Part shown: positions 28,597 to 29,238 of the stretch, piece after piece
How the letters are laid out: every line of letters starts with the position of its first letter
How positions within the stretch are numbered: the first letter of the stretch is position 1
Assembly (NCBI GenBank): GCA_014802105.1
Contig: JAAVCX010000003.1
Location: 40,774 to 80,795, forward strand
Reading direction: 5' to 3'
Source: Bacteroides sp.
Lineage (GTDB): Bacteria > Bacteroidota > Bacteroidia > Bacteroidales > Muribaculaceae
Length of the DNA stretch: 40,022 bases
Program-made: the position numbers and the translations under genes
Notes under the pieces: generated by a model
What the model saw: only the letters and a program-made list of their open reading frames with translations
The model's database searches: none
Told to the model about the DNA's origin: nothing

Positions 28597-28675
28597 TGGT
28601 GGGCGATGCAGGAGTCGAACCTGCTTTTCTGTCGGTGCACTTCGACAGCGTTTTGGCCAGTTAAACTAATCGTCC
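28597..28675 (-). tRNA. tRNA-like gene with enlarged anticodon loop (Cys-like GCA?), CCA encoded
   Basis: Read on the minus strand: acceptor GGACGAT / ATCGCCC with one A-C mismatch; D-stem GTTT / AAAC with GG in the loop; T-arm GCAGG-TTCGACT-CCTGC; ACCA encoded at the 3' end. The span is 79 nt, 3 more than usual. The excess is in the anticodon arm, which folds as CTGTCG / CGACAG around an 8-nt loop AAGTGCAC (or a 5-bp stem with a 10-nt loop). T followed by GCA in the loop and a TTCGACT T-loop fit tRNA-Cys, but identity is uncertain and it may be non-decoding. Confidence 0.6.
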
Positions 28676-28756
28676 GGATGAAGAAACCCGCCCACGCTTC
28701 ACAGCGGAGACGGGGAAAGATAATGGATATATGATAGCTTAGATATTGTTAATTAG

Positions 28757-28955
28757 GACAACAGGCGGGACTCGAACCCGCGACCACACAAACTAATCCT
28801 ATGAGGTTTTACACTGCTAATACGTATATCACGTTCTCCGATTGTAATTAATGTGGAGTGAAGCACCTCTCCCGCCCGGGAAACCACATATTTGTGTTCC
28901 TTCCTCAAACCTTATAGTACCAGCTTGTCGCTCTATCCGACTGAGCTACTGTTGC
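28757..28955 (-). tRNA. Interrupted tRNA-Thr(GGU)-like gene, about 124-nt insert in the anticodon loop
   Basis: On the minus strand the 5' half reads GCAACAG, TA, GCTC-AGTCGGATA-GAGC, G, ACAAG, then CTGGTA. The 3' half reads G, TTTGT, GTGGTC, GCGGG-TTCGAGT-CCCGC, CTGTTGT. Acceptor (6 Watson-Crick pairs plus one G-T), D, anticodon (ACAAG / TTTGT) and T stems all pair across the gap. Removing 28794-28917 leaves 75 nt with a 7-nt loop C-T-GGT-A-G, anticodon GGU. The insert's ends pair in an imperfect 9-bp helix (ATAAGGTTT with AAACCTCAT). No group I core is evident. It may be an intron or a broken gene. Confidence 0.62.
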
Positions 28956-29167
28956 CGGAGTCAATATGTAGGGCAGCGACTTAACGCTGCATTAAAAGTC
29001 ATACTTGCTACGGCGGTCCATCGCGTCCGTTCATGTGATACTGTGGTTGGTTACACAGCCGCGTCGAGGCTTTTATCTCCCGATTAGCTACCGTCTTGCT
29101 ATGTATGGGTTTAGGTACACGTACCTTGCAAGGTCAGGCCACTCACGATGGAGCGTTCTTATTGAGG
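28956..29167 (-). other. Gene-free stretch between tRNAs with several short hairpins
   Basis: No convincing coding frame and no T-arm consensus is found. It holds GCAGCG-N6-CGCTGC (28973-28990), a CTGTG / CACAG hairpin with an 8-nt loop, and a D-arm-like stretch TAGCTAATCGGGAGATAAAAGC on the minus strand. It could be tRNA decay, a structured RNA or processing spacer. Confidence 0.35.
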
Positions 29168-29238
29168 TTGCCGGAGTGGGATTCGAACCCGCGATACCAG
29201 AACCAAGGGCTGGTGTGTTTCCGCTACACTATCCGGCA
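29168..29238 (-). tRNA. tRNA-Gln(UUG)-like gene with C33
   Basis: On the minus strand: acceptor TGCCGGA / TCCGGCA (7 perfect pairs, with the U1-A72 pair typical of bacterial tRNA-Gln); D-stem GTGT / ACAC; anticodon stem CCAGC / TCTGG with a mismatch at the loop-closing pair; loop CCTTGGT with TTG at 34-36; T-arm GCGGG-TTCGAAT-CCCAC with one mismatch; A73 then CC. It is 71 nt long. Position 33 is C rather than the near-universal U. Confidence 0.72.

Follow-up and report, generated by a model that had tools for sequence, protein, structure and literature searches.

The minus strand of the window (the whole stretch of 40,022 nucleotides that was analysed) carries at 28757-28956 a single tRNA body, recognised by its Rfam match, by shuffles and by its homologues, whose anticodon stem is extended in register by inserted sequence. 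Among the homologues the pairing of the acceptor and T stems has been kept and the anticodon arms are very different, and the gene directly adjoins a conserved structured noncoding RNA (ncRNA). We hypothesize, with a probability of about one half, that this is a tRNA-derived RNA which is neither spliced nor used for decoding, and whose acceptor/T domain marks processing beside the ncRNA. That the RNA would be transcribed and cut, and that it would escape both splicing and decoding, is what we infer from its sequence.

The window is part of contig C3 in a genome of 2.08 Mb that is 77% complete. Genes of phage type (tail-like, helicase, methyltransferases, RecT, exonuclease VIII-like) occur in it together with host genes (EngA-like GTPase, Maf, Clp ATPase), which places the RNA array inside a prophage. 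Read along the minus strand, the array consists of tRNA-Gln(TTG) (29238-29166), the ncRNA (29171-28957), the tRNA-like RNA (28956-28757), a further tRNA-like RNA (28675-28600) and a recT-like gene (28483-27461; Pfam RecT, E 9.7e-8; PHROG 148, E 1e-6).

A tRNA body with an extended anticodon arm

When cmscan is run with permissive filters on 801 bases, the Rfam tRNA model RF00005 matches 28757-28955 of the minus strand with 36.7 bits against a gathering score of 29. The match spans model positions 1-71 and places a local insert of 127 nt in the anticodon loop; overall, the insert in the anticodon arm measures about 124-127 nt. An earlier note on this DNA had marked the same interval as one tRNA body interrupted in its anticodon arm. 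The Rfam score and the shuffle counts agree with it, except that its 5' end falls short: the G-1 of an eighth acceptor pair (28956) lies just outside, opposite C73 (28757). The gene was missed by ARAGORN and by cmscan in gathering mode at default settings, and is absent among the 41 matches of a whole-genome tRNA search. Because standard tRNA finders miss it, similar genes may be overlooked.

The 5' strand of the acceptor, GGCAACAG (28949-28956, G-1 and positions 1-7), pairs with 28764-28757, where CTGTTGT is followed by C73 and no CCA is encoded, as read from the sequence and the alignment of homologues; the stem includes a G1-U72 wobble. The D arm (GCTC...GAGC, 28930-28946) is supported by the permissive Rfam match, the homologues and an unconstrained fold, and the T arm (GCGGG TTCGAGT CCCGC) occupies 28765-28781. 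Holding the T arm fixed and shuffling the upstream 330 nt with dinucleotides kept, we found that the real acceptor and D-arm score was reached by 28 of 20,000 shuffles, and by 1 of 20,000 once the 5-bp anticodon stem was included. The cloverleaf appears with its eighth pair, G-1:C73, in an unconstrained fold. The stability of the whole 203-nt RNA is unexceptional (z -1.69; 13 of 200 shuffles fold equally well or better). It had been claimed that the stems pair only after the insert is removed; this must be given up for the D stem, which pairs with or without it.

The insert continues the anticodon stem in register, so that 28928-28907 and 28809-28788 form a helix with 20 of 22 positions paired and no gap. 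Leaving out the 5-bp stem, 15 of the other 17 positions are paired, compared with a shuffle mean of 7.17, and at least 15 pairs were reached in 1 of 20,000 shuffles; the same helix is recovered in minimum-free-energy folds. Its 5' strand holds ACAAG, the anticodon stem, and CTGGTA, which would begin the loop if the insert were an intron, and its 3' strand ends in TTTGT (positions 39-43). Around the junction the helix is ungapped, with two single 1x1 mismatches. The imperfect 9-bp helix that the earlier note had seen at the insert's ends is therefore real as part of this 22-position helix, and the normal 7-nt loop that it had drawn does not survive, since the supposed loop CTGGT pairs with ATTAG in the extension.

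By the junction of that note the inserted stretch is 28794-28917, and no relative of it was found elsewhere. It matches nothing in 50,697 phage records, and among 198 family genomes only its own genome matches at E <= 0.001, which rules out a mobile element with relatives in these collections. A group I or II intron is likewise ruled out, as had been supposed, because neither gathering nor permissive Rfam scans (E up to 10) gave a match to an intron model of either kind. By eye, the insert includes a 13-codon ATG frame; none was noticed in the corresponding arm of the viral locus L078.

Homologous slots in related phages

Used as a query, the array DNA matched 18 of 297 family genomes, its own included. 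Many of these matches were to the T arm alone, and the strongest fell between the two tRNAs, not within them. In a plain homologue search of phage records recT alone matched; a second such search returned 74 records, and the 20 listed lay mostly under the tRNAs; one of them, weak at E 0.04, fell within the ncRNA. Relatives of recT in viral contigs provided 76 loci. The exact T-arm/acceptor pattern had no match in the viral contigs. Matches to the acceptor/D-arm pattern at L154 and L155 were set aside as resembling coding DNA without a tRNA, and a third, L101, is the contig of L001.

Eight homologous slots, counting that of the window, share one acceptor family. The stretch from D to T arm, usually about 22 nt, is 148 nt in the window, 29 in L001, 67 in L002, 71 in L078, 66 in L079, 70 in L080, 36 in L081 and 24 in L082, where the 66-70 nt of L002, L079 and L080 are not strictly comparable because the D arm is doubtful there; a clear D arm is missing in these 3 of the 8 homologues. 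In other words, the anticodon arms of this slot in other related Bacteroidales phages range from nearly normal up to roughly 50 nt of extra length. The arm of L078 folds, unconstrained, as a 15-bp stem extension with one bulge. In L001 and L082 the anticodon arm is of ordinary size, and a single contiguous tRNA lies between the same ends. Since relatives have this slot with an uninterrupted arm, the additional sequence was gained by insertion or expansion, which bears out that much of an earlier proposal of an intron, other insertion or broken gene. Three of the slots (L079 1819-1936, L080 1736-1857, L002 230-348) were seen to combine the kept acceptor/T end with a different interior and a common leader, AACCAATATGGTGTG.

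Over the eight homologues the acceptor has 62 of 64 standard pairs, with changes on both sides at 2 of its 8 pairs, and the T stem has 40 of 40, with such changes at 2 of its 5 pairs. Acceptor position 4-69, whose partners lie on opposite sides of the insert, is changed on both sides in 3 of the 8. These paired changes support the view, already taken from the sequence of the window, that the gene is not in random decay.

All eight homologues have G-1:C73. The host tRNA-His has the same end, and C73 occurs in 1 of 16 aligned host tRNAs (16 of 41 were taken into the alignment), which is tRNA-His. ARAGORN calls the slot of L001, the nearest relative, tRNA-Thr(ggt); its uninterrupted loop CAGGTAA has GGTA in common with the window and no U33. 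Among the five homologues that bear a D arm, U33 and purine 37 are, by reading, both present only in the window, which fits a 7-nt loop only with the insert removed; U33 is absent in L001, L078 and L081, and L082 has C37. The identity tRNA-Thr(GGU) given earlier is thus doubtful: the loop is indeed like that of Thr(GGU), but G-1:C73 is a mark of tRNA-His and the loops of the other D-arm-bearing homologues are non-canonical.

The adjoining ncRNA and the recT-upstream array

The ncRNA at 28957-29171 (minus strand) is bounded by a closing helix, 29165-28961, and is recognised by its match to model R1 and by predicted pairs with both-side changes. Across eight aligned loci, both partners have changed and still pair at 16 of the 51 predicted pairs. 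Besides near copies and one cut locus, R1 finds further viral loci in L028 (94.8 bits), L009 (38.1) and L006 (25.8), and it matches 8 of 397 family genomes. A second version, R3, matches 9 of 397 family genomes and, with strict filters, only its own among 393 order genomes. The ncRNA had no Rfam match at the gathering score, the best below threshold being asX2 (E 1.6).

The spacing of the ncRNA was counted at 11 loci, omitting L002 (contig end), L030, L090/L149 (the L006 region again) and L116 (82 nt). A tRNA-like RNA precedes the ncRNA in 11 of 11, and 7 of these are firm, that is, with a scanner score of at least 20 or an R2 E value <= 0.001 (window, L001, L078, L079, L081, L082, L006). The weak ones are L028 (E 0.0016), L083 (E 0.013), L009 (E 0.15) and L080 (E 1.7), the last two by the T arm only. 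Between the upstream tRNA-like RNA and the start of the closing helix lie 0-7 nt in 10 of the 11 loci and 35 nt in L080. The helix ends 4-10 nt before the next tRNA-like RNA in 7 of the 11, 31 nt before it in L079 and 48 nt before it in L080, and in L083 and L009 no downstream tRNA-like RNA was found.

In the window the upstream neighbour, tRNA-Gln(TTG) (29166-29238; ARAGORN, Rfam 49.7 bits), has its discriminator at 29168; by eye its anticodon stem is poor, with a 9-nt loop or a C-U mismatch at 31-39. The downstream tRNA-like RNA at 28600-28675 (ARAGORN, as tRNA-???, and Rfam) has an 8-nt anticodon loop, and its relatives in L001, L002, L078 and L079 have a common CTGC...GCAG arm whose loop is large and odd. 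A terminator-like hairpin lies at 28691-28708, 3' of the tRNA-like RNA with the long arm, in a scan that found three against a shuffle mean of 1.0. Another was observed at 28560-28536, within a larger GTTTAG/CTAAAC helix before recT, and similar ones occur in L001, L002, L078 and L079. All of these are on the minus strand.

Odd tRNA-like RNAs recur upstream of recT. In a scan of 64 of the 76 loci (12 with recT near a contig end, or near-copy loci, were omitted), 18 tRNA-like RNAs scoring at least 20, from 16 loci, lay in the 73,408 bases up to 1200 nt upstream of recT, compared with 3 elsewhere, in 725,502 strand-bases; duplicates were collapsed into one upstream but not elsewhere, and the near copies L028 and L030 were both counted. 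The three elsewhere represent one place in the near-identical contigs L064-L066. The D-to-T stretch is outside 22-24 nt in 10 of the 18, some of which may be ordinary long variable arms. L006 has a 4-nt anticodon loop, L028 has a 76-nt D-to-T stretch, and the anticodon arm of a second tRNA-like RNA in L080 (1976-2097) has a loop of some 54 nt. Ordinary tRNAs stand beside odd ones in the arrays, for instance Gln in L079 and Leu in L078. We also observed tRNA-like RNAs with very short palindromic anticodon arms that end about 43 nt before recT in L019 and L031 (about 2873-2960), and in L156 (about 370-445) an 8-bp acceptor, GACAGCAG/CTGCTGTC, with a T arm, no D arm evident by eye and no ARAGORN call.

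Processing, splicing or mimicry

The acceptor/T domain is what RNase P and the 3' maturation enzymes chiefly recognise, and the simplest reading of the array is that its tRNA-shaped units release the ncRNA. Hypothetically, tRNA, ncRNA and tRNA-like RNA would be transcribed together, RNase P would cut at the 5' end of the tRNA-like RNA, and 3' processing would cut after the preceding tRNA. The tRNA-shaped units would in this way release the ncRNA (about 200 nt), set both of its termini and detach it from the transcript of recT. What is kept would be a working tRNA end, made up of acceptor stem, G-1:C73 and T arm, and the sequence does present the geometry of an RNase P substrate (acceptor and T-arm helix, with G-1). 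If this domain alone is enough for RNase P, the rest of the molecule could drift, and an anticodon arm free of the decoding constraint might have expanded into the long stem with its internal hairpins. This reading needs no splicing. Counting against it, the loop of the window, C-U-GGU-A, carries the U33 and A37 that a genuine Thr(GGU) tRNA would have, and the GGTA shared with L001 looks as if the insert had entered at 37/38. The gaps from ncRNA to tRNA-like RNA are irregular in some loci, a downstream tRNA-like RNA is missing from two, four of the 11 upstream ones are weak, and the stability of the complete RNA is unremarkable.

A true small intron at 37/38, which an unknown bacterial or phage endonuclease would cut out and the host's RtcB would seal to give a 75-nt tRNA-Thr(GGU), is in our view somewhat unlikely. 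The place is the usual one of archaeal and eukaryotic tRNA introns (excerpts of PMC4090602), Prevotella-infecting Lak phages are reported to have tRNA introns of an enigmatic kind (excerpts of PMC6784885), the spliced loop C-U-GGU-A-G would be plausible beside TTGGTAA in the host tRNA-Thr(GGT), and the ARAGORN call at L001 points the same way. RtcB is encoded in the genome itself (G000:C23, E 2e-55) and in 20 of 41 genomes searched, whereas tRNA_int_endo was found in 0 of 21, this 77% complete genome included, with four archaeal controls positive. Pairing between anticodon and intron also occurs in spliced pre-tRNAs, with which the pairing of anticodon and insert is compatible. A bulge-helix-bulge (BHB) substrate, however, consists of two 3-nt bulges around a 4-bp helix, and the junction here has single 1x1 mismatches and no such bulges. 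Nor is G-1:C73 a mark of Thr, and removal of the extra sequence would leave non-canonical loops in other homologues, with no U33 in L078, L081 and L001. Splitting the gene instead into two tRNAs, one per half, would be most surprising, and we reject it. With the host tRNA model, filters off and the model unable to span 199 nt, the 3' half (28757-28820) scores 21.9 bits (E 2e-5) and the 5' half (28882-28955) 14.2 bits (E 0.014), both below the joint Rfam score, which comes from a different model; the both-side changes at acceptor position 4-69 reach across the insert, and in L001 and L082 the same ends enclose one contiguous tRNA.

That an insertion broke a tRNA gene which is now decaying strikes us as quite improbable. 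It would suit the uniqueness of the insert, the wildly varying arms of the relatives and the G1-U72 wobble, but the insert's ends extend the stem in register, which is not expected of an arbitrary insertion; the both-side changes in acceptor and T stem and the repeated expansions in other tRNA-like RNAs of the same phages also count against it. We consider it distinctly unlikely that the RNA is a functional tRNA mimic, a histidine-acceptor tRNA-like molecule with a variable head, acting like tmRNA or as a decoy for host anticodon nucleases. HisRS depends on G-1:C73, and the 8-bp acceptor with this pair ends in all eight homologues as host tRNA-His does. In tmRNA a long helix replaces the anticodon stem, as one does here, but neither ARAGORN nor Rfam calls a tmRNA, and 3 of the 8 homologues are without a clear D arm. 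Phage tRNAs with altered anticodon loops have been proposed to evade anticodon nucleases (excerpts of PMC10264068). Rather unlikely, too, is the broader notion of a phage RNA family with a histidine-type tRNA end and a hypervariable head, made together with the ncRNA of about 200 nt and serving a tmRNA-like or decoy role unrelated to decoding. Because the arm varies in length and the acceptor/T end is kept, the readings of splicing, processing and mimicry predict different things. Irrespective of the choice between them, the locus reveals a conserved phage ncRNA without a match in Rfam.

Like tmRNA, the RNA of the window joins an acceptor and T arm to a long helix where a tRNA has its anticodon stem; unlike tmRNA it keeps a D arm, has G-1:C73 and receives no tmRNA call. 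With the 37/38 introns of archaea and eukaryotes it shares the position and the pairing of anticodon region and insert, and it differs in having no BHB bulges and in that no tRNA_int_endo gene was found. Bacterial group I introns also sit in tRNA anticodon loops (excerpts of Hausner et al. 2014, PMC3984707), whereas the insert here is about 124 nt and has no Rfam group I match; the phage group I introns known by 2014 lay, according to the same excerpts, in protein genes. ROOL and GOLLD are structured phage ncRNAs beside tRNAs (excerpts of PMC12286853), as is the ncRNA of the window, which unlike them is about 200 nt long, has no Rfam match and is directly flanked by tRNA-like RNAs.

Among the literature matches listed, the Lak megaphage report alone described phage tRNA introns, which is no claim that others are absent from print. 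These introns are unexplained and some occur in only part of the genomes (excerpts of Devoto et al. 2019, PMC6784885). Like the gene of the window, they lengthen tRNA genes of phages with Bacteroidales hosts outside the known intron classes and are patchy among relatives, so that lengthened tRNAs in such phages are not new as such. According to those excerpts, recurring Lak introns are typically identical across cohorts and one may encode a tRNA, whereas in the window the insert is unique, no tRNA is called in it, the anticodon stem is extended, and both arm size and D arm differ from homologue to homologue. To the Lak cases this locus adds a stem extended in register, homologues that vary, a G-1:C73 end and an ncRNA next to it. 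The very different arm sizes of the gene in related phages suggest a tRNA-derived RNA that does not read codons, rather than a simple intron-bearing tRNA.
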